Below, in pieces: positions 1,933 to 40,022 of a DNA stretch of 40,058 nucleotides. Below the pieces are notes generated by a model. The model had not been told where the DNA came from. It saw nothing but the letters and a program-made list of their open reading frames with translations, and did no database searches. Position 1 is the first letter of the stretch. Each line of letters opens with the position of its first letter. The stretch is from Deltaproteobacteria bacterium (GTDB taxonomy: Bacteria; Campylobacterota_A; Desulfurellia; JAGGSF01). Both the position numbers and the translations under genes were made by a program. The stretch is from assembly GCA_021159305.1 (NCBI GenBank), contig JAGGSB010000037.1:1-40058 (forward strand), read 5' to 3'.

Positions 1933-2706
1933 CTACCCATTTCTATTACTAAAGAAATAAGTTAAGTTAAACCATGCATTATCCATAATTCTAATTCCTT
2001 TTCTTGATAGTTTCACACCTGTTTTTCCGCTTGTTTTATATTCTATAATGTGGTCCAATGCTCTTTGGGCAAACTCCGATGCCTTTTTTTTATCCCCCAT
2101 TTTCTTATAAGCATATATTGTACTGAACAGCATATTAATATAAAAAGGAAGATTATGTTCTGCCCATCTTGTAGACATAACATCTTTGTAAAGTTCTACT
2201 GCCTGTTTGTATTTCCCTGTCTCTTTATAGATATTTGCCATATCTTTTAAGATAAATGCTCTTTTCATATCAGAGGAAAGTGCTAAGGCTTGTTTTAGGA
2301 AAAAAAGCGCTTCGGAAGGATTTTTTAAATTTCTGTAAAGGCGTGCTAACTCTGTATAGCCTATAACCATCATTTCTCTGCTGTGTGCTCTGAATGCTAT
2401 TCTTAAAACCGCTCTTAGAAATCCTTCGGCTATTTTAAATTCTCTTTTTTCTATATATATCATAGCCAAGCTGCCTATAGACATGTATTTTTCTTGTAAT
2501 GTTTTTGCCTCTGCAAGTGATTTTTTTAGAAAGAATTGAGCGGCATTTAAAGAACCCATTATAAAATAACCGGTACCCATCCAGTATAAAACAGAAAAAT
2601 TTTGAGGAAAAATCTTGTAAGCATTCTTAAATTCAAGAATTGCTTTTAAGGGTTCATTTTCTTTAATTAAAAGACTGATGCCTTTTTCTATATAAACTTT
2701 TATCAC
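1933..2706 (-). CDS. TPR-repeat protein
   Basis: About 257 residues made almost wholly of tetratricopeptide helices. Repeats with the W-x-G-Y and A-x-x-x-Y spacing are visible in YWMGTGYFIMGSLNAAQFF, YTELARLYRNLKNPSEALFF and MANIYKETGKYKQAVELY. There is no signal peptide and no catalytic domain, so a protein-binding scaffold is the only supportable role. The GTG at 2706 is preceded by GAGG at about ten bases. A TTG at 2715 gives three more residues but would sit almost on top of the GAGG. It is divergent from the RAYT gene, with about 60 bases between starts. Confidence 0.75.
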   Translation of the reverse strand: MIKVYIEKGISLLIKENEPLKAILEFKNAYKIFPQNFSVLYWMGTGYFIMGSLNAAQFFLKKSLAEAKTLQEKYMSIGSLAMIYIEKREFKIAEGFLRAVLRIAFRAHSREMMVIGYTELARLYRNLKNPSEALFFLKQALALSSDMKRAFILKDMANIYKETGKYKQAVELYKDVMSTRWAEHNLPFYINMLFSTIYAYKKMGDKKKASEFAQRALDHIIEYKTSGKTGVKLSRKGIRIMDNAWFNLTYFFSNRNG

Positions 2707-2765
2707 TGGGGTCAAACCTCAAATTTAAACTTTACATTCTATCTCTTTTATGTAACAATTCTCAT

Positions 2766-3734
2766 ATGGCACGACAGTTGCGTATTCTTTACCCTAACGC
2801 CTTATATTATATTACTTCATGTGGTAATACACAACAGGATATTTTTTTTAATGACAGTGATAGACGAAAATTTCTAAATATTCTTGCCCGCACCAAAAAG
2901 GAATATGGATATATTCTACACGGCTATTGTCTTATGAATAGTTGTTTTCATCTTTTATTAGAAACACCTCATGCCAATTTGCATACAATTATGCAGAATA
3001 TCAACACATCTTATACTGTTTATGTAAATAGAAAATATAACAGGGTAGGGCATCTATTTAGAGGAAGATATAAAGCAATCGTAATAGATAAAGAAAATTA
3101 TCTTCTTCAGGTTAGTAAATATATTCATCTCAAACCGGTTGAAGCCAAATTAAGCAATTTTCCCGAGGATTATATCTGGAGTAGCTATAAGGACTTTATC
3201 CATCCCTGTAGCTCAATTGTAGATACAGAATTTATTTTATCTCGTCTTTGTAATGATTCCAAAAAATCTTGTGAGCTTTATAAATATTTTGTAGAAAAAG
3301 AAAAAGATAAAGATATACAAAAAAATATAAAAGGTATGGTGCTGGGAGATGAAAGATTTATAAAAGATATTCTACAAAAGATAAAAAATATAAGAAAAAA
3401 AGAATATCCTGCGGTGCACCAACTTATAACAGTGTTCTCACCAAAGGAAATTATTGTAAAAGTCGCTGTGTTTTTTGGAGTTAAACCCGTAAAACTTTTG
3501 CGAAGATCACGCAATAGATGGGAGAGGAAAATTGCTATTTATTTAACAAAAATTCTTTCCAGAAGGAGTCATAGAATATTGGGAAGGTATTTTGGTGTCA
3601 GTGGAGCGGCAATAAGTGCAGCTATAAAAAAATGTATGATGGAGATGAAAAAGGATAAAAAACTTGAGAAGATAGTAGAGCAAATAAAAAACAATGTTGT
3701 TGAGGAGAAAACAAATGCCCCAGACAGGATTTGA
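2766..3734 (+). CDS. RAYT / IS200-like (Y1) transposase-family protein with altered HUH motif
   Basis: A 322-residue protein of the REP-associated tyrosine transposase group. Family hallmarks are the opening ARQLRILYPNALYYITSCG, the block GRVGHLFRGRYKAIVID-like segment at residues 92-108 and the YLLQVSKYIHLKPVEA helix with tyrosines 112 and 119. A C-terminal extension (about residues 220-310) ends in a DnaA-domain-IV-like helix-turn-helix (RILGRYFGVSGAAISAAIKK). Where the family normally has N-H-x-H-L-L, this protein reads S-C-F-H-L-L (C60, H62), so the first histidine of the metal-binding HUH pair is cysteine. The frame is otherwise intact. The last codons read through the 3' end of the tRNA-Arg gene on the other strand. 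No terminal repeats of a classical IS were seen. No Shine-Dalgarno precedes the ATG. It may be domesticated or inactive. Confidence 0.85.
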   Translation: MARQLRILYPNALYYITSCGNTQQDIFFNDSDRRKFLNILARTKKEYGYILHGYCLMNSCFHLLLETPHANLHTIMQNINTSYTVYVNRKYNRVGHLFRGRYKAIVIDKENYLLQVSKYIHLKPVEAKLSNFPEDYIWSSYKDFIHPCSSIVDTEFILSRLCNDSKKSCELYKYFVEKEKDKDIQKNIKGMVLGDERFIKDILQKIKNIRKKEYPAVHQLITVFSPKEIIVKVAVFFGVKPVKLLRRSRNRWERKIAIYLTKILSRRSHRILGRYFGVSGAAISAAIKKCMMEMKKDKKLEKIVEQIKNNVVEEKTNAPDRI

Positions 3735-3789
3735 ACCTGCGACACCGGGATTAGGAATCCCGTGCTCTATCCACCTGAGCTACTGGGGC
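3716..3789 (-). tRNA. tRNA-Arg (anticodon CCT)
   Basis: Reverse-complement reading folds as a complete cloverleaf of 74 nt. The acceptor stem pairs GCCCCAG with CTGGGGC, the anticodon stem is CGGGA/TCCCG around loop TTCCTAA (anticodon CCT, reading AGG codons), and the T-arm contains GGTTCGAATCC. The discriminator is A. CCA is not encoded, so it must be added after transcription. The 3' end overlaps the end of the convergent RAYT-family gene by 19 bases. Confidence 0.95.
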
Positions 3790-3804
3790 GTATTCTTGCT
3801 AATA

Positions 3805-3832
3805 TTATTATATTCAATTGCAGGGTTGTCAA
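3805..3832 (-). promoter_or_regulatory. Likely promoter of tRNA-Arg
   Basis: On the minus strand TTGACA (3827-3832) is followed after 16 bases by TAATAA (3805-3810), about 15 bases before the tRNA 5' end. The -35 box lies in the 15-base palindrome AGGGTTGTCAACCCT (3823-3837), so a regulator or a cruciform could act here. Confidence 0.5.
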
Positions 3833-6150: not shown

Positions 6151-6159
6151 GGGTCTAAT

Positions 6160-6240
6160 TCCCCGCAGCTTGCCGCGATTTGTGTCATAAAAATTCGTAA
6201 ATGAATTTTTGCGCTCAAATCTGCGATTTGTGTCATTCCC
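6160..6240 (-). repeat. Two units of the paired-hairpin ATGACA repeat family
   Basis: On the minus strand, two units begin ATGACACAAATCGC, at 6235 and 6187, 48 bases apart. The first contains hairpin CAAATC-GCA-GATTTG, then AAAAATTC-ATTTAC-GAATTTTT directly before the second ATGACA. The second unit ends in a G/C-rich palindrome (GCGGCAAGCTGCGG) and GGGGAATTAGACCC, matching the end of the array at 39.8 kb. No gene starts here, so this copy is intergenic, between a plus gene and the convergent serS. Confidence 0.75.
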
Positions 6241-6296
6241 GTGAAAGCATGCCCTCGACCTGATCGGGGGCGGGAATCCAGAGTCCATATCAAGTA

Positions 6297-6371
6297 ATGT
6301 CACCCCGTACTTGATACGGGGGCGGAATGACATCTGGTGATACCCCGCTGCTTGCGGCGGGGGGTTTTTAT
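6297..6371. repeat. Double G/C-rich hairpin repeat (copy 1), also a terminator for plus-strand transcription
   Basis: Two hairpins in tandem: CCCCGTACTTGATACGGGG and CCCCGCTGCTTGCGGCGGGG, joined by a linker containing GGCGGAATGACAT and GGTGATA, then a T-rich tail. From 6318 to 6362 it matches 27225-27269 at 43 of 45 bases. A related half-palindrome (TCGGGGGCGGGAATCCAG) lies just upstream at about 6263-6281. The tail TTTTT after the last stem makes it a plausible rho-independent terminator for the SPT/GNAT operon, overlapping the end of serS. Confidence 0.75.
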
Positions 6372-7639
6372 TCAGCTTTTACAATTTTTGTCTTCATATA
6401 ATCTTGCAATACTTTGGGAATAATTACCGAGCCGTCTTTCTGCTGATAATTTTCTAAGATAGCAATCAGTGTTCTTCCTACCGCCAACCCCGAACCATTT
6501 AGAGTGTGAACATACTCTGTTTTTTTGCTACCTTTTCTTTTGAATCTTATGTTTGCTCTTCTGGCCTGAAAATCCAGACAATTTGAACAGGAAGAAACCT
6601 CTCTAAATTTGTTTTCTCCGGGCAGCCATACCTCTATATCATAGGTTTTTGCACTGGAAAAACCTATATCACCAGAACACAGCACCACTATGCGATATGG
6701 GATTTTTAAAAGTCTTAATATCTCTTGAGCATCTTCTGTAATTTTTTCCAGCACTTTGGAAGAATCTTCCGGTTTGGTAAATTGCACCAATTCTATCTTG
6801 TTAAACTGATGCTGCCTCATTATACCTCTTACATCTTTGCCATAAGAACCTGCTTCTTTACGAAAACAGGTTGACCAGGCTACATATTTTAAGGGCAGTT
6901 CCTCTTCTTTTAGTATCTCATTCCTGTGCAGGTTTATTAAAGGAACCTCTGCAGTAGGAATAAGGTATTGTCCATCTATCTCATATGCTTCTTCTTTGAA
7001 CTTTGGCAGCTGACCTGTTCCTACCATTATTTCTTCATTGACTAAAAATGGAGGAATAATTTCTGTATAATTGTATTTTTTAGTATGCACATCAATCATA
7101 AAATTAATTAATGCCCTTTCTAATTGTGCTCCATATCTTTTATACACTGCAAACCTGGGTCCGGAGAGTTTGGCTGCTGTTTTAAAGTCCAGAATATTTA
7201 GTTTTTCTCCCAATTCCCAGTGAGTTTTCACCTTAAAATCAAAATCTGGTATTTTCCCCCACCTTTTTATTTCTATATTTTCTTTTTCACTTTCTCCGAG
7301 CGGCACATCATCATCAATAATATTGGGCACCAGCAACCATTCTTTTAAAAATATGTCTTCTTTGTTCTGCATGTCTTCCTTTATTTGCTTGATTTCTATA
7401 TCTATTTTCTTAGATTCTTGTTGAAGCTGTTGTGCTGATTGTCCTTTTTTCTTTATTTCTCCTATCTTTTTTGAAATTGTTTTTTTGTCATGCAATAGTA
7501 TTTCCATTTGCTTTTTATTTTCTCTTATCCCTTCATCTAAAAGATAAAGTTTATCTATATCAACAGAACAAGATTTTCTCTTTTTGATATTTTCTTTTAA
7601 GGATTCTTTGTTTTCCCTTAAGTTTTTTATGTTTATCAT
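6368..7639 (-). CDS. serS: Seryl-tRNA synthetase
   Basis: A 423-residue class-II aminoacyl-tRNA synthetase that charges tRNA-Ser (and tRNA-Sec where present). The N-terminal tRNA-binding arm is a long antiparallel coiled coil (about residues 1-110, rich in Lys, Glu and Ile). Catalytic motifs are clear: TAEVPLINLHRNE, motif 2 FRKEAGSYGKDVRGIMRQHQ, and motif 3 LNGSGLAVGRTLIAILENYQ. Length equals the usual bacterial form. It is the last gene of a five-gene minus-strand operon and its start overlaps the stop of galU by four bases. The gene ends inside a repeat hairpin. Confidence 0.97.
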   Translation of the reverse strand: MINIKNLRENKESLKENIKKRKSCSVDIDKLYLLDEGIRENKKQMEILLHDKKTISKKIGEIKKKGQSAQQLQQESKKIDIEIKQIKEDMQNKEDIFLKEWLLVPNIIDDDVPLGESEKENIEIKRWGKIPDFDFKVKTHWELGEKLNILDFKTAAKLSGPRFAVYKRYGAQLERALINFMIDVHTKKYNYTEIIPPFLVNEEIMVGTGQLPKFKEEAYEIDGQYLIPTAEVPLINLHRNEILKEEELPLKYVAWSTCFRKEAGSYGKDVRGIMRQHQFNKIELVQFTKPEDSSKVLEKITEDAQEILRLLKIPYRIVVLCSGDIGFSSAKTYDIEVWLPGENKFREVSSCSNCLDFQARRANIRFKRKGSKKTEYVHTLNGSGLAVGRTLIAILENYQQKDGSVIIPKVLQDYMKTKIVKAE

Positions 7640-27180: not shown

Positions 27181-27189
27181 AGATTTATT

Positions 27190-27275
27190 ACGCATAGCAG
27201 GGTTAATACCCCGCACACCGATGCGGGGGCGGAATGACATTCGGTGATACCCCGCTGCTTGCGGCGGGGTTTTTT
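27190..27275. repeat. Double G/C-rich hairpin repeat (copy 2)
   Basis: Hairpins CCCCGCACACCGATGCGGGG and CCCCGCTGCTTGCGGCGGGG joined by GGCGGAATGACAT and GGTGATA, followed by TTTTTTATTT. It matches 6318-6362 at 43 of 45 bases from 27225. Its left boundary, ATAGCAGGGTTAATACCCCGC, is shared with the array end at about 39791 (ATAGTAGGGTTAATGTCCCGC). It lies between the divergent corC and xseB genes where no gene needs a terminator, so it is read as a mobile or REP-type repeat. Confidence 0.78.
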
Positions 27276-27320
27276 ATTTCAATTCCTGTGCCCTGAATAT
27301 ACAACCTACCTACCTGCCTG

Positions 27321-27616: not shown

Positions 27617-28460
27617 TTTTCTCAGTAAATACAAGAATAAGGCAAACAAATATTTAGAAGAAATCTTTCGGGAAAATGTTTTTTATCCTCCTCTATTTAA
27701 TGAAGCAATGAAATATACAGTTTTTACGGAGGGGAAAAAAATAAGAGCAGCCCTTATCCTCTCTACGGTGAAACTTTTTTCCAATTATGAAATTGGATTA
27801 CCTTTTGCTGCATCTATAGAACTAATCCATGCTTACTCTCTCATTCATGATGACCTACCATCCATGGACAACGATGATTATAGACGAGGGAAACCATCCA
27901 ACCACAAGGTGTTTGGAGAAGAATTAGCCATTTTAGCTGGCGACGGATTAGGCACTTTTGCTTATGAAATAATAGTTGATAAAGGCTTACGAGTTACAAG
28001 TAAAGAGAATGTACTGAAGATAATAAGGGAAATAAGTCATGCTTCAGGTCCATGGGGAATGGTAGGCGGACAGGCAGCAGATATCCTTGTTGCTAAAAAG
28101 AAGATAAAAATGGAAGATGAAAAAGAGATGGTCAATTTTATCCATACCCACAAGACACAAAAACTTATTGCTATATGCCCAACAATTGGCGGAATATTAG
28201 GTAATTGCAATAGCGATGAGCTTCATAAACTCAAGACTTACGGAGAAAAAATTGGCCTTGCCTTTCAAATCATGGATGATGTATTAGATGTAGGAGAAGA
28301 AGAAAATACTTTGACTTACCCTAAAGTCTACGGTATAGAGAATTCGAAGCAAATTGCTAAAAAACTGGTGGAAGAAGGACAAGAACAGCTGACAATATGG
28401 GGGGAAAAAGCAAGTGAGCTTTTAGATATAGCTGATTTGATCGTAGAAAGGAGTAGCTAA
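27597..28460 (+). CDS. Polyprenyl (geranyl/farnesyl-type) diphosphate synthase
   Basis: A 287-residue trans-isoprenyl diphosphate synthase that elongates DMAPP/GPP with IPP. The first aspartate motif is HDDLPSMDNDDYRRGKPSNH (about residues 82-101) and the second is IMDDVLDVGEEENT. GGQAADI and the FQIMDD helix are conserved. After the second motif the usual G-K-x-x-G-x-D loop is shortened, so LTYPKVYG follows almost directly. The start is the TTG at 27597 with GGAAGG upstream; no better in-frame start exists. Product length (C15 or C20) cannot be fixed with certainty. The stop overlaps the start of a repeat-derived mini-ORF by one base (TAATG). Confidence 0.9.
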   Translation: MKNLNLDFLSKYKNKANKYLEEIFRENVFYPPLFNEAMKYTVFTEGKKIRAALILSTVKLFSNYEIGLPFAASIELIHAYSLIHDDLPSMDNDDYRRGKPSNHKVFGEELAILAGDGLGTFAYEIIVDKGLRVTSKENVLKIIREISHASGPWGMVGGQAADILVAKKKIKMEDEKEMVNFIHTHKTQKLIAICPTIGGILGNCNSDELHKLKTYGEKIGLAFQIMDDVLDVGEEENTLTYPKVYGIENSKQIAKKLVEEGQEQLTIWGEKASELLDIADLIVERSS

Positions 28461-28513
28461 TGATAAAAATCAAAGATTTTTACCGTAAAAATTCTGAAGG
28501 AGAATTTTTATGA
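28460..28513 (+). repeat. Single ATGA-type repeat unit forming a 17-codon mini-ORF in front of hisB
   Basis: The unit starts with ATG overlapping the stop of the previous gene and encodes MIKIKDFYRKNSEGEFL. It ends TTTTTATGA, where TGA is its stop and ATG is the hisB start. AAAGGAG precedes its own ATG. It contains two perfect hairpins: AAAAATC-AAA-GATTTTT, then AAAATTCT-GAAGG-AGAATTTT, the second presenting the hisB Shine-Dalgarno in loop and stem. It matches the minus-strand unit at 34510-34563 at 52 of 54 bases. Confidence 0.82.
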
Positions 28514-29088
28514 AAAGAGAGGCGAGAATTTCCAGAAAAACAGAGGAAACGGAAGTGGAGATAAACCTATGTATAGATGGAAGAGGAAAGGCAGAGATTT
28601 CTACACCTGTAGGTTTTTTTAATCATATGTTGGAAACCGTAGCCAAACATAGCAACTTTGATATAGAAGTTCAGGCAAAAGGTGATGTAGAAGTAGATTT
28701 TCACCACATTGTAGAGGATATAGGTATCGTTTTTGGGGAAACTTTTTTAAAAGCATTAGGTGAAAAGAGAGGGATAAAGAGGTTTGCATCTTCTGTCGTT
28801 CCTATGGATGATGCATTGACACTATGCAGTATAGATATCGGAGGAAGACCGTACTTTTATTATAATTTGAGTGTAAGCGGAAAATTAGGGAATATGGATA
28901 TAGAAGTAATAGAGGAATTTTTTCGTGCTTTTTCATACAACGCATTGATTAATCTTTATATAGATGGTTTACATGGAAAGAATGCTCATCATATCATTGA
29001 ATCTGTATTTAAAGCATTTTCCTTAACTTTAAAGCAAGCGGTAAGAATAGAGGGTGACACTATTCCCTCCACAAAGGGCGTGCTCTGA
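28510..29088 (+). CDS. hisB: Imidazoleglycerol-phosphate dehydratase
   Basis: A 192-residue monofunctional HisB of the histidine pathway, converting imidazoleglycerol phosphate to imidazoleacetol phosphate with Mn-bound histidines. Motifs: TPVGFFNHMLETVAKHSNFD, the HH pair in DFHHIVEDIGIVFGE, and the second HH in GKNAHHIIESVFKAFSL, with DDAL between them. It lacks the phosphatase domain of the bifunctional form. No other his gene is nearby; it sits among isoprenoid and tRNA-modification genes. Its start is supplied by the upstream repeat unit and its stop overlaps the inferred non-AUG start of mtaB (CTGA). Confidence 0.95.
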   Translation: MKREARISRKTEETEVEINLCIDGRGKAEISTPVGFFNHMLETVAKHSNFDIEVQAKGDVEVDFHHIVEDIGIVFGETFLKALGEKRGIKRFASSVVPMDDALTLCSIDIGGRPYFYYNLSVSGKLGNMDIEVIEEFFRAFSYNALINLYIDGLHGKNAHHIIESVFKAFSLTLKQAVRIEGDTIPSTKGVL

Positions 29089-30365: not shown

Positions 30366-31162
30366 GGAAAAAGCGTAAGCCCTTTGATGATAAACGAGAC
30401 AAAATTGTGTTTCTTGGTACCGGTGGAGGAAGAATTGTTGTCTTTTCACAGGTGAGAGCCTCAGGCGGCCTATGGTTTCAATTGGATGGCAAGATATTCG
30501 TTATTGACCCCGGACCGGGAGCTTTGGTAAAAGCAGCGAATATGGGTATAAGCATAAGAAAATTAAAGGCTATTTTCATTTCACACAGACACCTGGACCA
30601 CTGTGCGGATATAAATAGTATCATTGTAGCGATGACAGAAGGAGCCAGAAGAAAGAAAGGTATAGTTTTCGCACCTCCGGATGCTATAGATGAAGACTCT
30701 GTAATCTTAGAATACTGCAAAAATACTGTAGAAAACATAATAAGGTTAAAACAAGGAGGAAAATACAAAATAGATGACATTTCTCTATATACTCCTCTTA
30801 AATTTATTCATCCTCCCCAGACATTTGGTGTTATAATAGAAAGCGAAAGATATACCATATCCTATATTACAGATACATTATGGTTTGACGAATTACCCCA
30901 GATCTTTCAGGGTGATGTGGTCATTATGAATACTGTTTTTAAAGAGCCAAGACAGGGCTTTTATCATCTATGCATTCATGATGTGGAGAAATATCTCTCT
31001 GTATATAAACCGAAAATATTGATTCTCAATCACTTTGGCATGACACTTTTACGAGCAAAACCATGGGAGTGGGCGGAGAGAATTTCAAAACAATTTAATA
31101 CAAAAGTTTTAGCAGCATGGGATAATATGGTTTTTGATTTAGATAAAGAAGTGGGACAATGA
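30362..31162 (+). CDS. MBL-fold metallo-hydrolase
   Basis: A 266-residue metallo-beta-lactamase-fold protein. The metal-binding motif is FISHRHLDHCADIN (HxHxDH); further ligands are likely in SYITDTLWFDE and ILNHFGM. The N-terminal FLGTGGGRIVVFSQVRASGG and FVIDPGPGALVKA resemble RNase Z/PhnP-type hydrolases, but it lacks clear RNase Z exosite features. The substrate is unknown. ATG 30362 is chosen because it overlaps the mtaB stop as ATGA; a reading that begins 48 bases earlier would overlap mtaB for no reason. Its end overlaps the lipid-kinase gene by four bases. Confidence 0.87.
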   Translation: MRKKRKPFDDKRDKIVFLGTGGGRIVVFSQVRASGGLWFQLDGKIFVIDPGPGALVKAANMGISIRKLKAIFISHRHLDHCADINSIIVAMTEGARRKKGIVFAPPDAIDEDSVILEYCKNTVENIIRLKQGGKYKIDDISLYTPLKFIHPPQTFGVIIESERYTISYITDTLWFDELPQIFQGDVVIMNTVFKEPRQGFYHLCIHDVEKYLSVYKPKILILNHFGMTLLRAKPWEWAERISKQFNTKVLAAWDNMVFDLDKEVGQ

Positions 31163-32028: not shown

Positions 32029-32487
32029 TTCATCGGCATCAGTTTCTCCAAGTTTGAATGGATTTTTAACCACGATCAAAATTTCCTTTTTAGTTTCAAA
32101 CGCCATAAGATGCAGCATACTCTGTATAAAGAGATAACCACGAGTATTACCCGAGTTATCCTTTATTACATAAATAGAAGAGGGTTTGTCCACAGTTTTT
32201 ATGAATTTTGCCGGTTCATCCGTAATAATCTTTGTTCTTTCAGCCCTTGCCATATAGAATGAAAGTGTATAGTCATCATCTATCTTATCCAATAAAATGG
32301 CATTGTTTTCCCCCATTCCCCACATTTCCAATTCGGGGTCTGAGAGTATAGAAATTCTATATTTATCCTTTTGAATTTGAGAGAAGTTTATTTCTTGCAA
32401 AGTAACATATTTATACCTGCAGCTTACTATACCAACAGACACTATCAACATTAGAGATATAATTATAATTTTTCTAAAAAGTAGCAT
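32005..32487 (-). CDS. Predicted lipoprotein of unknown function
   Basis: A 160-residue protein with a lipoprotein signal peptide: positive start (MLLFRK), hydrophobic core and lipobox IVSC with the acylated cysteine at residue 23. The mature part is hydrophilic, with no domain I recognise. The segment RISILSDPELEMWGMGENNA is followed by a beta-rich middle (KPSSIYVIKDNSGNTRGYLF). It is last in the NifX-MinD-MinD operon, overlapping the upstream ATPase gene by 14 bases, and may or may not share its role. Confidence 0.72.
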   Translation of the reverse strand: MLLFRKIIIISLMLIVSVGIVSCRYKYVTLQEINFSQIQKDKYRISILSDPELEMWGMGENNAILLDKIDDDYTLSFYMARAERTKIITDEPAKFIKTVDKPSSIYVIKDNSGNTRGYLFIQSMLHLMAFETKKEILIVVKNPFKLGETDADELLRDDNG

Positions 32488-33337
32488 CTATCTTTTCCCA
32501 TATTCTGTCTATAATTTCCTTTATGGAGGGACAAACATCGTATGCAATTTTTTTGTTCATTAAAGCCTCATCTATACATTTTGTAAATGGAATCTCTGCT
32601 AATACCTCTATTTTGTTTTGTTTGCACCAACTTTTTATCTTTTCGCTTGTTTCCTTATTTATATCACATTTATTGATGATAACGCTTGTCTTCGTGCCAA
32701 AGTTGTCGGATAGTTGACAAACCCTTTTCAAGTCGTGAACACCCGATATTGTAGGTTCAGTTACAACTATTGCTATCTGCGCTCCAGAAAGAGCAGAAAT
32801 GACCGGACAGCCGATGCCTGGAGGACCATCCACTAATATATATGGTATATTTTCCTCTTCAGCAATAGCATGTGTTTTTTTCTTTATCTTCGCTACCAGA
32901 TTTCCGGAGTTCTCAGCACCAGGATTAAGTCTTGCATGAACCATCTTTCCATGTTTCGTATTGGAAACAAACCATTCACCTATAATTTCATCTACAATAG
33001 TAATCGCTTTTTCTGGACATACTAAGGTGCACAAAGTGCATCCTTCACATTTCATAGGATTAATAAAATACTTATCTTCTCTTTTATAAATAGCATCAAA
33101 TCGGCAATATTTTTCACATAATCCACAACCTGTACATTTTTCTTCATCTATAATTGCTGACTGTGCACCTATGAATTCTTCCTGCTGTAAAATCCTGGGA
33201 CTTAAAAGTATAAACATATCCGCCGCATCTACATCTGCATCCACAATAATTTTGCTTGGTATTGCGCATGACAAACAACTAGCAATAGTTGTTTTTCCTG
33301 TGCCCCCTTTTCCACTGATAATTACAATTTCTTTCAT
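32474..33337 (-). CDS. MinD-superfamily P-loop ATPase with inserted ferredoxin domain (second copy)
   Basis: A 287-residue ATPase with the deviant Walker A motif ISGKGGTGKTTIASCL (residues 7-22) and a ferredoxin domain inserted at about 65-115 carrying CTGCGLCEKYCRFDAI and CEGCTLCTLVCPEKAI. The switch/Walker B region is ILVDGPPGIGCPVISALSGA. This is the COG1149 architecture, usually found in pairs and next to a NifX/NifB-like protein. A role in iron-sulfur or redox-protein maturation is often suggested but not established. It overlaps its paralogue by four bases. It is clearly a divergent duplicate of the gene that precedes it. Confidence 0.9.
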   Translation of the reverse strand: MKEIVIISGKGGTGKTTIASCLSCAIPSKIIVDADVDAADMFILLSPRILQQEEFIGAQSAIIDEEKCTGCGLCEKYCRFDAIYKREDKYFINPMKCEGCTLCTLVCPEKAITIVDEIIGEWFVSNTKHGKMVHARLNPGAENSGNLVAKIKKKTHAIAEEENIPYILVDGPPGIGCPVISALSGAQIAIVVTEPTISGVHDLKRVCQLSDNFGTKTSVIINKCDINKETSEKIKSWCKQNKIEVLAEIPFTKCIDEALMNKKIAYDVCPSIKEIIDRIWEKIDATF

Positions 33338-34161
33338 ATCCCCAATCTCTTCTTTAAGGATAGAAACAATCCCTCTCCTTCTTTGTCTTCAATTAATACC
33401 TTGCCCTGCGAATAGAGATAAGCAAATTGTCTCTTAAAGGGAATTTTTAGAAGAATAGGTAAGGAAGAAAATTCCTGAACTGTTTCTCCTCTATCTTTGT
33501 TTATTATTATTCCAAAATCCTTTTTTAGGTGCTTTACTACCTCTATTGCCAGTTTTAGATCGTTTATGCCAAATGGGGTGGGTTCTGTAACCAAAACCAC
33601 AAAGTCTGCCATCTCTATTGATTCCACCATGGGACAACCTGTTCCCGGCGGTGCATCCACAATAGCAATCTTATCTTTTTTGATAAGTTTTTTTATCTGT
33701 TTAATGATGGGAGTAGGGGAGGGCTCACCAATATTCATTATGCCATCTATAAAATCTATTTCATTTCCTTTAAAAGATGCTTTTCCTTTTCTTATAATAC
33801 CCTTTTTCTTAAAAACCTCTCTTAACGCTCCTTCTACAGGACATACATAACTGCATGTTCCACAATTGTGACACAACTGCGGGAAATACAGCACTTTTTT
33901 TTGTTCTTTTAATATTGTTAGAGCATGAAAAGCACAGTGTCTCGCACATAAGCCACAAAATGTGCATATATTTTCATTTATTAAGGGAACAGGGAATAAA
34001 CATTCTTTTGTTTCTTCTATCTCTGGGTGAAGAAATAAGTGTCCGTTTGGTTCCTCTACATCTGTATCTACATATACAGAATGTGGTATAAGAAGAGAAA
34101 GAGAAGAGGCAACAGTTGTTTTTCCTGTGCCCCCTTTTCCACTGGCAACAGTTATGATCAT
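33334..34161 (-). CDS. MinD-superfamily P-loop ATPase with inserted ferredoxin domain (first copy)
   Basis: A 275-residue paralogue of the neighbouring ATPase. Walker A is VASGKGGTGKTTVASSL (residues 4-20). The ferredoxin insert has CTFCGLCARHCAFHAL and CHNCGTCSYVCPVEGAL. The nucleotide-dependent switch is IVDAPPGTGCPMVESIEMAD, followed by VTEPTPFGINDLKLA. The start overlaps the NifX-like gene by four bases and the stop overlaps the second copy by four, so the pair should be produced in balanced amounts, consistent with a heterodimer. Confidence 0.9.
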   Translation of the reverse strand: MIITVASGKGGTGKTTVASSLSLLIPHSVYVDTDVEEPNGHLFLHPEIEETKECLFPVPLINENICTFCGLCARHCAFHALTILKEQKKVLYFPQLCHNCGTCSYVCPVEGALREVFKKKGIIRKGKASFKGNEIDFIDGIMNIGEPSPTPIIKQIKKLIKKDKIAIVDAPPGTGCPMVESIEMADFVVLVTEPTPFGINDLKLAIEVVKHLKKDFGIIINKDRGETVQEFSSLPILLKIPFKRQFAYLYSQGKVLIEDKEGEGLFLSLKKRLGI

Positions 34162-34463
34162 TTAAACTGAGACAGGGCTTCTTTAACGTTTCCGGAAATC
34201 TTTTTAATCTCTATCTTTGCTTCAGTTAATGCCATTTTTGCATTTGGTCCCATATCATTGGCAACGACGATTTTTATCCCTTCATTTATTATATATTGAG
34301 CAACCATTGTGCCTACTGCTCTTGCACTATCCTTGTAGGTATTTTCCTTTATTTCCGTTGTTTTTTTCTCCGTGTCATAGATAATAAAATATGGTGCACG
34401 GGCAAAACGCAAATCTACCTCTCCGTTTAGATCGTTTTTCGTTGTTGGTATAAGAATTTTCAT
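34158..34463 (-). CDS. NifX/NifB-like (dinitrogenase iron-molybdenum cofactor biosynthesis family) protein
   Basis: A 101-residue single-domain protein of the COG1433 NifX-like fold: MKILIPTTKNDLNGEVDLRF at the start, APYFIIYDTEKK, and VAQYIINEGIKIVVANDMGP with GNVKEALSQF at the end. No nitrogenase genes are present. In anaerobes such proteins commonly accompany paired MinD-ferredoxin ATPases, with unknown function. The ATG at 34463 has a perfect AAAGGAGG seven bases upstream, which excludes a longer reading that would begin inside the leader mini-ORFs. That Shine-Dalgarno lies in a hairpin at the end of a repeat unit, so translation probably depends on translation of the mini-ORF before it. 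Confidence 0.87.
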   Translation of the reverse strand: MKILIPTTKNDLNGEVDLRFARAPYFIIYDTEKKTTEIKENTYKDSARAVGTMVAQYIINEGIKIVVANDMGPNAKMALTEAKIEIKKISGNVKEALSQFK

Positions 34464-34563
34464 AAAAAAACCTCCTTTAGAGGGTTTTTTACGGCAAATC
34501 GCAGAATTGTCATAAAAATTCTCCTCCAAAATTTTTACGGTAAAAATCTTTGATTTTTATCAT
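34460..34563 (-). repeat. Tandem pair of ATGA-linked mini-ORF repeat units before the nifX-like gene
   Basis: Starts at 34563, 34513 and 34463 are spaced exactly 50 bases apart. Unit 1 encodes MIKIKDFYRKNFGGEFL and unit 2 encodes MTILRFAVKNPLKEVFL. Each has 17 codons plus TGA, and each stop overlaps the next ATG. Every ATG has its own Shine-Dalgarno (TTAGGAGG, GGAGGAG, AAAGGAGG). Unit 1 holds TAAAAATC-AAA-GATTTTTA and AAAATT/AATTTT-type stems. Unit 2 ends in AAAAAACC...GGTTTTTT, which pairs with part of the Shine-Dalgarno of the nifX-like gene. Unit 1 is 52/54 identical to 28460-28513. Confidence 0.85.
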
Positions 34564-34591
34564 AAGAACCTCCTAAGATCTTCCCTGCTGC

Positions 34592-34620
34592 ATTATAGTT
34601 ATTATTTCTGTCTACTACAA
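34592..34620 (-). promoter_or_regulatory. Candidate promoter of the NifX-MinD operon
   Basis: Minus-strand perfect -10 TATAAT (34592-34597) with TTGTAG (34615-34620) 17 bases upstream. The -35 is weak. It precedes the first mini-ORF by about 28 bases. Confidence 0.5.
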
Positions 34621-34623
34621 GTA

Positions 34624-34652
34624 TTGCTTTTACTTTTAATTTTTACTACAAT
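34624..34652 (+). promoter_or_regulatory. Candidate promoter of the lptM-like/nadB unit
   Basis: TTGCTT (34624-34629), 17-base spacer, TACAAT (34647-34652). The ATG at 34660 is seven bases beyond the -10, so the mRNA should begin at or near the start codon. Confidence 0.5.
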
Positions 34653-34659
34653 TCCTGTT

Positions 34660-34773
34660 ATGAAATATGCTCTAATGATTTTAGCAATATTGCTTGTAAC
34701 TGCGGGGCTTTCTTCTTGCGGTCACAAGGCTCCTCCTAAACCACCATCATCTTGCTACTTTATTATAAAATGA
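34660..34773 (+). CDS. Tiny LptM-like lipoprotein (37 residues)
   Basis: MKYALMILAILLVTAGLSSC is a complete lipoprotein signal with lipobox LSSC (acylated Cys20). It is followed by GHKAPPKPPS, close to the C-G-x-K-x-P-x-x-P pattern of LptM (YifL), the small lipoprotein that helps mature the LptD-LptE translocon in E. coli. A short tail SCYFIIK ends in TGA overlapping the nadB ATG (ATGA). No Shine-Dalgarno is visible and a -10 box lies seven bases upstream, so leaderless translation is likely. The LptM identity is inferred from a very short motif; the lipoprotein signal itself is clear. Confidence 0.72.
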   Translation: MKYALMILAILLVTAGLSSCGHKAPPKPPSSCYFIIK

Positions 34774-36311
34774 AAGATTTTGTGGTTATAGGCAGTGGTG
34801 TAGCAGGATTGCGCGCCGCTATTGAAATAGCCTTAGAAGGAAAGGAAGTAGATATCTATACGAAAGAAAGTATAGATATGTCCAACACTGACAAAGCACA
34901 GGGCGGTATCGCCGTTGTCTTAAGAGAAAATGACAGTAAAGAGTCTCATTTTCAAGATACAATAAAGGCTGGTGCAGGATTATGCAATGAAGAAGCGGTG
35001 CGTATCCTGGTAGATGAAGGACCGGAAAGAGTAAGAGGGCTTATAGACTGGGGAGCAAAATTTGATAGAAGGCCGGATGGTTCGTTAGATTTTACTCGTG
35101 AAGCTGCTCATTCCATCAATAGGATTGTGCATGCCTTAGGAGATGCGACAGGACACGAAGTAGAAAGAACACTCATTGAAATGGTTAAAGAACTACCGAT
35201 TAAAATACATGGTTATTGCAGCTTAGCAAGTATTTTATGTGAAAAAAATACAGCAGTAGGCATAAGAATATTAAAAGATAATAAATTTGAGGATATACCT
35301 GCCCGTAGAATAATTGTTGCTACTGGCGGTTATGGAGCAGTATATAAACACACCACAAATCCTGATGTGACTACAGGAGATGGTATTGGAGCAGCGTTTC
35401 TTGCAGGCGCTATTGTGGAGGATATGGAATTTGTTCAGTTCCATCCCACCTGTTTACACATAAAAGGCGTGCCTGCATTTTTGCTCTCTGAGTCGATGAG
35501 AGGGGAGGGGGGGATACTCATAAATGATTCAGGAGAACCATTTATGTATAGGTATCATGAACTTAAAGAACTCGCTCCTCGAGACATTGTTGCCCGCTCA
35601 ATTATTTTTGAAATGCAAAGAAGGAGCACAAAACATGTATATCTTGATATGAGGCATCTGTATAAAGATTTTGTAAAGAAACGTTTTCCCACCATTTATG
35701 AAACCTGTCTAAATTATGGAATAGACATAACTAAAAAACCTGTTCCCGTTGCTCCTGCCGCTCATTATACCATGGGAGGTATAAAAACAGATATGGAAGG
35801 AAAAACAAACATCAATGGTCTTTTTGCATGTGGTGAGGCAGCCTGCACCGGGGTGCATGGAGCAAATAGGTTAGCTTCCAATTCTATTTTAGAAGGATTG
35901 GTTTTTGGAAGAAGGGCGGGTTTAGCCGCCATTTCTTATAAAGATAAGTTTATTTCCAATATTCAATATCCTTTACCTGAAGGAAATACACTACAAAATA
36001 TAGAACAAACAACCCATGAATTTCAACTTGCAATAGATGAAAAAATGGGTCCCATAAGAACCATGAAAGGACTGGAAGAATTTTTGGAGTATGCAAAAAA
36101 CTTATGGAAAGATGTAAAAGATATAAGAAATTCACGTCAAAGCATAGAATTAAGGAACATGGTTCTTATCGGGCTACTTATTGCCACATCGGCATTAAAG
36201 AGAAAAAGTAGTGTGGGAGCGCACTATTGTATAGACACACCTCACCTTAATGACAAAAAACACATCTCACTTTCTTATGAACAACTAAAAGAATTTATCG
36301 GCGAAAATTAA
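34770..36311 (+). CDS. nadB: L-aspartate oxidase
   Basis: A 513-residue flavoprotein of the NadB/succinate-dehydrogenase-flavoprotein family. It oxidises L-aspartate to iminoaspartate, first step of de novo NAD synthesis. FAD site: DFVVIGSGVAGLRAAIEIAL. Catalytic region: AQGGIAVVLRENDS, AAHSINRIVHALGDATGHEV, EFVQFHPTCLH, SESMRGEGGILIND and ELAPRDIVARSI. The C-terminal GVHGANRLASNSILEGLVFG favours NadB over fumarate reductase FrdA. No nadA or nadC is in the window. The ATG at 34770 overlaps the stop of the lipoprotein gene. Confidence 0.93.
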   Translation: MKDFVVIGSGVAGLRAAIEIALEGKEVDIYTKESIDMSNTDKAQGGIAVVLRENDSKESHFQDTIKAGAGLCNEEAVRILVDEGPERVRGLIDWGAKFDRRPDGSLDFTREAAHSINRIVHALGDATGHEVERTLIEMVKELPIKIHGYCSLASILCEKNTAVGIRILKDNKFEDIPARRIIVATGGYGAVYKHTTNPDVTTGDGIGAAFLAGAIVEDMEFVQFHPTCLHIKGVPAFLLSESMRGEGGILINDSGEPFMYRYHELKELAPRDIVARSIIFEMQRRSTKHVYLDMRHLYKDFVKKRFPTIYETCLNYGIDITKKPVPVAPAAHYTMGGIKTDMEGKTNINGLFACGEAACTGVHGANRLASNSILEGLVFGRRAGLAAISYKDKFISNIQYPLPEGNTLQNIEQTTHEFQLAIDEKMGPIRTMKGLEEFLEYAKNLWKDVKDIRNSRQSIELRNMVLIGLLIATSALKRKSSVGAHYCIDTPHLNDKKHISLSYEQLKEFIGEN

Positions 36312-39736: not shown

Positions 39737-39788
39737 CCATCTGCAGCTGGTTCCAGTGAGACAAAAATCAACTAATGTTTTTATTACA

Positions 39789-40022
39789 TATAGTAGGGTT
39801 AATGTCCCGCGGCAAGCCGCGATTTGTGTCATAAAAACCTCCAGTTTTTACGACCAAATCTTTGATTTGTGTCATAAAAATTCTAAGGGAATTCTTACAA
39901 CCAAATCTGCGATTTGTGTCATAAAATTTTAATGGAGATAAAATTTTACGGCGAAAGACAAAGTCTTTGGTCGCAAAAATTCTAAGGGAAATCGGGCGAC
40001 CAAATCAGGGCTATGTGTCGAA
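39789..40022 (-). repeat. Array of about five paired-hairpin repeat units
   Basis: The 322 bases after the last gene contain this array and no credible gene. Read on the minus strand, units begin at about 40021, 39974, 39922, 39875 and 39832, 43-52 bases apart; the last three begin ATGACACAAATC. First hairpins: CAAATC-GCA-GATTTG, CAAATC-AAA-GATTTG, CAAAG/CTTTG. Second hairpins: AAAATTTTA/TAAAATTTT, GAATTC/GAATTT, AAAAAC/GTTTTT. The joints are conserved while the stems change on both arms together. The unit at 39922 reads as a 16-codon ORF ending TTTTTATGA, like those before hisB and the nifX-like gene. The array ends with a CCGCGG-type palindrome and the boundary GGGTTAAT. Confidence 0.8.

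Follow-up and report, generated by a model that had tools for sequence, protein, structure and literature searches.

A palindromic repeat that coincides exactly with gene start codons in an uncultured genus of sulfur-associated bacteria

Three genomes from one genus of uncultured Desulfurellia harbor a dispersed family of short palindromic repeats, units of which end exactly on the start codon in at least 21 genes, ribosomal and housekeeping genes included, and comparisons between orthologous sites provide good support for the view that these mobile-looking repeats were inserted into start codons that already existed. The family came to light in a stretch of 40,058 nucleotides (contig JAGGSB010000037.1 of assembly GCA_021159305.1, the whole of which is referred to here as the window), in which two tandem units precede a nifX-like gene and a single, closely related unit precedes hisB. 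The genome that contains the window (G000; 1.08 Mb, 89 contigs) was analyzed together with those of two congeners (G001 and G002), all three being draft metagenome-assembled genomes (MAGs).

The tandem units and the hisB unit

Upstream of the nifX-like gene, three minus-strand ATGs (34563-34561, 34513-34511 and 34463-34461) are spaced by exactly 50 nt and are preceded by the Shine-Dalgarno (SD) sequences TTAGGAGG, GGAGGAG and AAAGGAGG, respectively. The first two ATGs open 17-codon open reading frames (ORFs) encoding MIKIKDFYRKNFGGEFL and MTILRFAVKNPLKEVFL, each of which ends in a TGA that lies inside the next ATGA, and the third opens a NifX/NifB-like protein of 101 residues. The initial annotation had described this arrangement, had placed the SD of the nifX-like gene within a hairpin and had noted the same cassette before hisB, and it was correct in all of these points, coordinates included: the arms AAAAAACC and GGTTTTTT are present around the last SD of the tandem, with a possible extension in which CGU pairs with the AUG, and the hisB copy is 90% identical to the nifX-like cassette over 68 nt. 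The second unit of the tandem is diverged, with an imperfect hairpin 1, and folding of 135 nt of RNA for hairpin 2 of that unit gave a z-score of -2.9, with alternative pairings present. The features concerned are as follows.

34514..34563, minus strand: unit 1 of the tandem before the nifX-like gene, with ATG, mini-ORF MIKIKDFYRKNFGGEFL and the SD GGAGGAG at its 3' end
34507-34573, minus strand: match of covariance model R1 over unit 1 (70.5 bits)
34541..34559, minus strand: hairpin 1 of unit 1, TAAAAATC AAA GATTTTTA, a perfect 8-bp palindrome
34511..34539, minus strand: hairpin 2 of unit 1, CGUAAAAAUUUU GGAGG AGAAUUUUUAUG, with a 12-bp stem; this hairpin includes the SD of unit 2 and its start codon
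34464..34513, minus strand: unit 2 of the tandem before the nifX-like gene, with ATG, mini-ORF MTILRFAVKNPLKEVFL and the SD AAAGGAGG at its 3' end
34461..34493, minus strand: hairpin 2 of unit 2, CGUAAAAAACCC...GGAGGUUUUUUUAUG, which includes the nifX-like gene's SD and start codon
34158..34463, minus strand: NifX/NifB-like (Nitro_FeMo-Co) gene, starting at the last ATG of the tandem (PF02579, E=2.8e-20)
28460..28509, plus strand: single unit upstream of hisB, with mini-ORF MIKIKDFYRKNSEGEFL and an ATGA link
28510..29088, plus strand: hisB, starting at the 3' ATG of the unit (PF00475, E=1.7e-57)

The unit at hisB is also present in G001, and in G002 it lacks hairpin 1, which has been deleted, and retains hairpin 2 and its SD. 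The nifX-like gene itself belongs to an operon (32474-34463) that also encodes two ParA/MinD-like ATPases with ferredoxin domains.

Distribution of the family and placement on start codons

A DNA search of G000 with the unit returned matches on many contigs, and a covariance model (R1) built from 20 copies recovered 56 matches in G000, 25 in G001 and 5 in G002 at a threshold of E<1e-4, whereas the same model found none at that threshold in 58 genomes outside the genus. When an exact pattern was compared with 84,980 species genomes (from which the window genome's own records were possibly excluded), it occurred in one organism only, the Desulfurellaceae MAG RS_18_25; the NCBI taxonomy assigns the Desulfurellaceae to the class Desulfurellia within the Campylobacterota. 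Viral contigs contained no match to the exact unit, and carriage of the repeat by phages or other viruses was rejected on that ground. The unit is a dispersed repeat family confined to one genus of uncultured sulfur-associated bacteria. Its length and pitch range from 40 to 56 nt across copies, and the exact 50-nt pitch that had been taken as a property of the unit is therefore not general.

The initial annotation had proposed that the genome be searched and the units ending on start codons be counted. That count, conducted with one unit per locus across 61 loci in the three genomes, and with starts defined as those of ORFs of at least 65 amino acids, placed the end of the unit at a distance of 0 nt from a start in 26 of the 61 loci and at 1-20 nt in none; two further loci fell at 21-50 nt, four at 51-100 nt and seven at 101-200 nt. 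After orthologous sites were merged, the 26 start-linked loci corresponded to 21 distinct genes. Only 10.4% of noncoding RTGs are gene starts (205 kb sampled), compared with an observed 21 of approximately 57 (p ~1e-7), a probability that is approximate because a simple ORF caller supplied the null and start-linked copies predominated among the seeds of the model. The genes so occupied include rpsB, rpmA, rpsJ, tuf, thiC, hisB, metF, rtcB and lpxK, as well as those for a mannose-1-phosphate guanylyltransferase-like protein, an RpoD-type sigma factor and an rlpA-like protein; apart from the nifX-like gene and hisB, these names are putative assignments read from N-terminal sequences.

Filled and empty sites in congeners

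Orthologous sites that differ in their units among the three genomes established that the repeat has entered existing starts, and thereby upheld the earlier view that a unit general in this genome would be mobile or amplified. At rtcB, zero, one and two units are found at one and the same ATG in G002, G000 and G001, respectively, the empty site in G002 reading TTTTTGATGT-ATGAAGATT, and the rlpA site displays the same series of zero, one and two units. The lpxK site is filled in G001 and empty in both G000 and G002 (GATGTTTT-ATGAACATT), degT is filled in G001 and empty in G000, and the c21 gene and metF are filled in G000 and empty in G001 (at metF, AAGTTTTTATGCATATT). Further sites that differ in their units are those of a cytochrome-like gene on contig C87, rpoD, rpmA, rpsB, thiC, rpsJ and tuf. 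Within the window, one such site is empty in G000 and carries units in G001:

31159..31162, plus strand: ATGA stop/start overlap, without a unit, before a diacylglycerol-kinase-like gene (dagK)

Between filled and empty alleles the native start codon is unmoved, and the unit lies between the old ribosome-binding site and that native ATG. Several insertions are located at ATGA overlaps, where the TGA of the upstream gene is retained in the first copy (rpoD/cysS, 518 codons; dagK, 273; rlpA, 217; lpxK, 195; rtcB, 135), and an ATG or ATGA is present on both sides of the inserted sequence. A strict requirement for ATGA was rejected, since the sites at metF, rpmA, rpsJ, c19 and tuf read ATGC, ATGG or ATGT; the target of insertion is therefore the ATG itself.

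Individual sites illustrate additional outcomes. At G000:C80:35295-35334 the N-terminus of a protein (MTQIIDLKRHFLKF...) is encoded by hairpin 1 of a unit, and the element has therefore supplied both the start and the first codons. In G000 (C28:4700-5600), a gene that starts near C28:5050 and is orthologous to one in G001 begins MTQIFGQGQ, compared with MQGQG in G002, and the left half of an element appears to have been kept there as N-terminal codons. The two tuf genes of G000 (C31:39333 and C31:55359) are both preceded by the same old, degenerate unit, which suggests gene conversion that included the upstream region.

Hairpins and mini-ORFs of the unit

The order of elements within the unit is RTG, hairpin 1 and hairpin 2. 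Hairpin 1 takes various forms (such as CAAATC-nnn-GATTTG, CAAACC-nnn-GGTTTG, CAATTC-nnn-GAATTG and TAAAAATC-nnn-GATTTTTA), and its mean stem of 5.9 bp within units falls to 2.9 bp when arms are re-paired among copies (maximum 3.9 in 2000 shuffles), a difference that supports the palindromes and does not constitute a formal probability, because related copies are not independent. Hairpin 2 takes the form CGUAAAAA...UUUUUAUG, with the SD in its 3' arm or loop and with its final three bases forming the next start codon, the AUG of which is paired with CGU in most of 39 units; the lengths of its A-run and T-run mostly co-vary, and its inner pairs vary together as well. The feet of the palindromes are ATGAC/ACAC and GTCGT/GCCGT. 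RNA folding of six loci yielded z-scores of -2.5 to -3.9, again with competing pairings.

In 29 of 31 start-linked units, the frame that begins at the first RTG is open up to the next start, the exceptions being rpmA and lpxK; many of these mini-ORFs stop within 25 nt of that start, and some read in frame into the gene. The ATGA link arises only where the pitch is 2 mod 3, as in approximately 11 of 28 independent units; with phase 1 the frame continues slightly past the start, and with phase 0 the mini-ORF can lengthen the protein (as at rlpA, the cytochrome-like gene on C87, and c214). The initial description of the unit as carrying its own start, SD and mini-ORF thus stands, the mini-ORF being mostly open, whereas the ATGA link depends upon phase. 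Because ATGA is one of three phase outcomes, coupling through overlapping ORFs is plausible in most units, though not by way of a selected ATGA.

Intergenic copies, arrays and a candidate mobilizer

Approximately 35 of the 61 loci are intergenic, with hairpins like those of the start-linked copies and often with GGAGG too, and they often form mosaics in which GC-rich palindromes ending in GCGGGAATGAC run on into the unit. In this respect the family as a whole resembles repetitive extragenic palindromic (REP) sequences and bacterial interspersed mosaic elements (BIMEs). The initial annotation had set the unit apart from REP sequences and miniature inverted-repeat transposable elements (MITEs), a contrast that was overstated for a family with more than half of its copies in REP/BIME-like mosaics between genes, and that holds for the unusual site of insertion. 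Two intergenic copies in the window, and a gene of potential relevance to their mobility, are listed here.

39826..39885, minus strand: intergenic copy within a BIME-like mosaic (39780-40019), away from gene starts (model R1, 68.6 bits)
6182..6246, minus strand: intergenic copy linked to a GC-rich palindrome via a GGAATGAC joint (model R1, 41 bits)
2766..3734, plus strand: REP-associated tyrosine transposase (RAYT)-like Y1 transposase, single copy, with a DnaA-type C-terminal helix-turn-helix (PF01797, E=4.4e-10; NF047646, 60.1 bits, below its cut-off of 80)

BIME-like mosaics occupy positions 39780-40019, 6156-6374 and 27184-27285 of the window, where GC-rich palindromes (GTCATTCCCGC...GCGGGAATGAC) meet AT-rich units at ATGAC/GTCAT joints, and clusters of the same composition form the ends of many G000 contigs. 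One contig end (G000:C84:16900-17298) holds an array of at least eight 48-nt units that terminate in TTGAC instead of ATGAC, and units are also present at the orthologous site in G001 (C60:81). A longer repeat, found at G002:C19:1721 and 4867 and at loci L126 and L116, embeds the unit between CACACCTTTCTATTTAGTA-like and AAATAGTAATCACAC-like flanks, and is possibly a MITE that carries the unit.

The RAYT-like gene adjoins a tRNA gene, is syntenic in G002, and is present once each in G000 and G002. Its absence from the G001 assembly is uninformative, because its two neighbors are also missing there. The encoded Y1 transposase is a candidate mobilizer of the units.

Interpretation and alternatives

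The explanation favored here, and considered rather probable, is that a REP/MITE-like mobile palindrome inserts at ATGs and replaces the host's ribosome-binding site, and that it probably relays ribosomes to the gene through overlapping ORFs. According to this model, a genus-specific palindrome of 40-56 bp would spread by insertion at ATG trinucleotides that are very often exactly translation starts, presumably through transposition of single-stranded DNA (ssDNA) by some mobilizer. Once a unit is in place, the original SD and ATG (or RTG) of the host would drive a mini-ORF of approximately 12-35 codons, and the element would provide a new SD 5-7 nt ahead of the unchanged native start, within the start-pairing hairpin (CGUAAAAA...UUUUUAUG). 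A ribosome on the mini-ORF, often fresh from the upstream gene of the operon at the same ATGA, would then read through the 5' arm of that hairpin and either terminate on or shortly beyond the following start or continue in frame, which would relay translation to the gene. Established mechanisms include both reinitiation where ORFs overlap in ATGA and the unfolding of hairpins in the translation initiation region (TIR) by an upstream ribosome (PMC6728339); the relay proposed here is judged to have slightly less than an even chance of being correct.

Several observations weigh against that explanation. Approximately 57% of loci are not at starts, and the excess of SD sequences in start-linked copies is marginal (23/26 versus 31/47, p=0.05). 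The rpmA mini-ORF ends 12 nt early and that of lpxK ends after four codons, while the mini-ORF is open in 17 of 20 copies away from starts, nearly as often as at starts, so that an open frame may simply come with the palindrome. There is no enrichment of the ATGA phase (pitch mod 3 of 11:11:6, p=0.41), and a test for selection of that phase found none. The predicted mean unpaired probability of the start codon is lower in filled than in empty alleles (0.22 versus 0.49, 11 genes), a change that is not significant (Wilcoxon p=0.08, n=11) and the direction of which would fit a hairpin that needs to be opened. No unit flanks the RAYT-like gene, the sole Y1 transposase (2600-3830 checked), and, its absence from the G001 assembly being uninformative, the protein was rejected as a proven mobilizer. 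In a rival, passenger reading, the palindrome is an ordinary one of the REP/MITE-like kind that enters ATG-like targets, its mini-ORF and hairpin have no regulatory role, and copies at starts survive only because the gene stays functional thanks to a right arm that happens to terminate in GGAGG-T5-ATG. The intergenic loci, which have these hairpins too and often this GGAGG, the similar openness of mini-ORFs in both settings, the absence of a phase preference, and the near loss (or failure to gain) of the family in G002 all favor this reading; placement on starts at three to four times the expectation for noncoding RTGs, the occupation of genes that are presumably essential and strongly expressed (rpsB, rpmA, rpsJ, tuf and rpoD), and the retention of the hairpin 2 SD in the decayed G002 hisB unit argue against it, and it is regarded as a serious though doubtful possibility.

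Strand switching, in which the SD-start region would be inverted locally (forward-inverted-forward) and then expanded by slippage with no transposition, would account for the inverted arm of rpoD unit 2 (GTCATAAAAATTCT), which is the exact reverse complement of the following start (AGAATTTTTATGAC), for the reuse of thiC's SD and first codons in the thiC units, for the ATGACGC common to the rpsB units and gene, and for tandem arrays of 48 and 52 nt. However, the inserts at rtcB, lpxK, degT, metF and C87 are missing from the empty allele and yet common to distant loci, which indicates that copies have moved between loci; local template switching was thus rejected as the sole origin, and an account without transposition is unlikely. 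A similarly low probability attaches to the idea that hairpin 2 is an RNA regulator that occludes the start codon, as a thermosensor or as a site for an RNase or other protein, the mini-ORF being incidental: the AU-rich hairpins do pair the AUG in most units, but intergenic copies have the same hairpins with no gene, the target genes have no common pathway, and an Rfam scan of 34000-35100 found no family that reached its cut-off (the best being csRNA, 27 bits versus 57). Although ATGs are common in AT-rich DNA, chance or misannotation of start codons is extremely improbable, given 26 of 61 loci at distance 0, none at 1-20 nt, and the use of the same ATG by congeners that have no unit.

If insertion at ATGs with replacement of the ribosome-binding site is indeed what these repeats do, mobile DNA could live inside operons and retune translation across a genome while leaving its proteins unchanged. 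An element that targets the start codon could establish itself in essential genes and rewire their translation without lethal effect, because the upstream stop and downstream start are preserved and the ribosome-binding site and relay ORF are re-supplied. With matched filled and empty start sites in close relatives, the consequences of acquiring a leader ORF and a start-codon hairpin can be put directly to the test.

Comparison with known systems

Known bacterial palindromic repeats act mostly after or between genes. The open-licence literature in PubMed Central yielded no dispersed start-codon palindrome with an SD of its own, the nearest case being heptamers in the Beggiatoaceae, and the units may tentatively be viewed as a new class of small mobile element that targets the start codon, often at an operon's ATGA overlap, and re-supplies a ribosome-binding site and relay ORF. 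Those TAACTGA heptamers (MacGregor 2015) are likewise dispersed repeats concentrated directly before start codons, mostly without an SD (PMC4679880); they are 7-bp direct repeats with no mini-ORFs that apparently replace the SD, whereas the units described here are hairpins that bring both an SD and an ORF.

With REP, BIME and REPIN sequences the units share short perfect palindromes, tandem and mosaic clusters, a location mostly outside genes, and the presence of one RAYT-like gene in the genome. Known REPs are tagged with GTAG or CGTC and are located near the 3' ends of ORFs (PMC3733652), in contrast to the present units, which have no such tag, contain an SD, lie in many cases on start codons and do not flank the RAYT gene. 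Small MITEs (ERIC/RU-1, Correia/NEMIS, RPE and RUP) are also non-autonomous palindromic inserts, and bacterial MITEs may carry ORFs, some of them fused in frame to host proteins (PMC2229807); the present units are shorter (~50 bp), lie at the start codon and not inside or after genes, and re-supply a ribosome-binding site. As for the features that define a MITE, an ATG or ATGA recurs on the two sides of insertions, the sites at metF, rpmA, rpsJ and tuf not being ATGA, and no autonomous parent element of the units was identified. Hairpins with feet able to pair with the ATG target (CGU/AUG) and a fixed orientation recall the ssDNA transposition of insertion sequences (IS) of the IS200/IS605 type, although autonomous IS ends are lacking here and no cognate transposase was identified. 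Finally, termination-reinitiation systems and leader peptides display the same ATGA overlaps, an SD near the site of restart, and a TIR hairpin that is opened by the upstream ribosome (PMC6728339, PMC4833913); in those systems the coupling belongs to resident genes, whereas here it would arrive with an inserted repeat.
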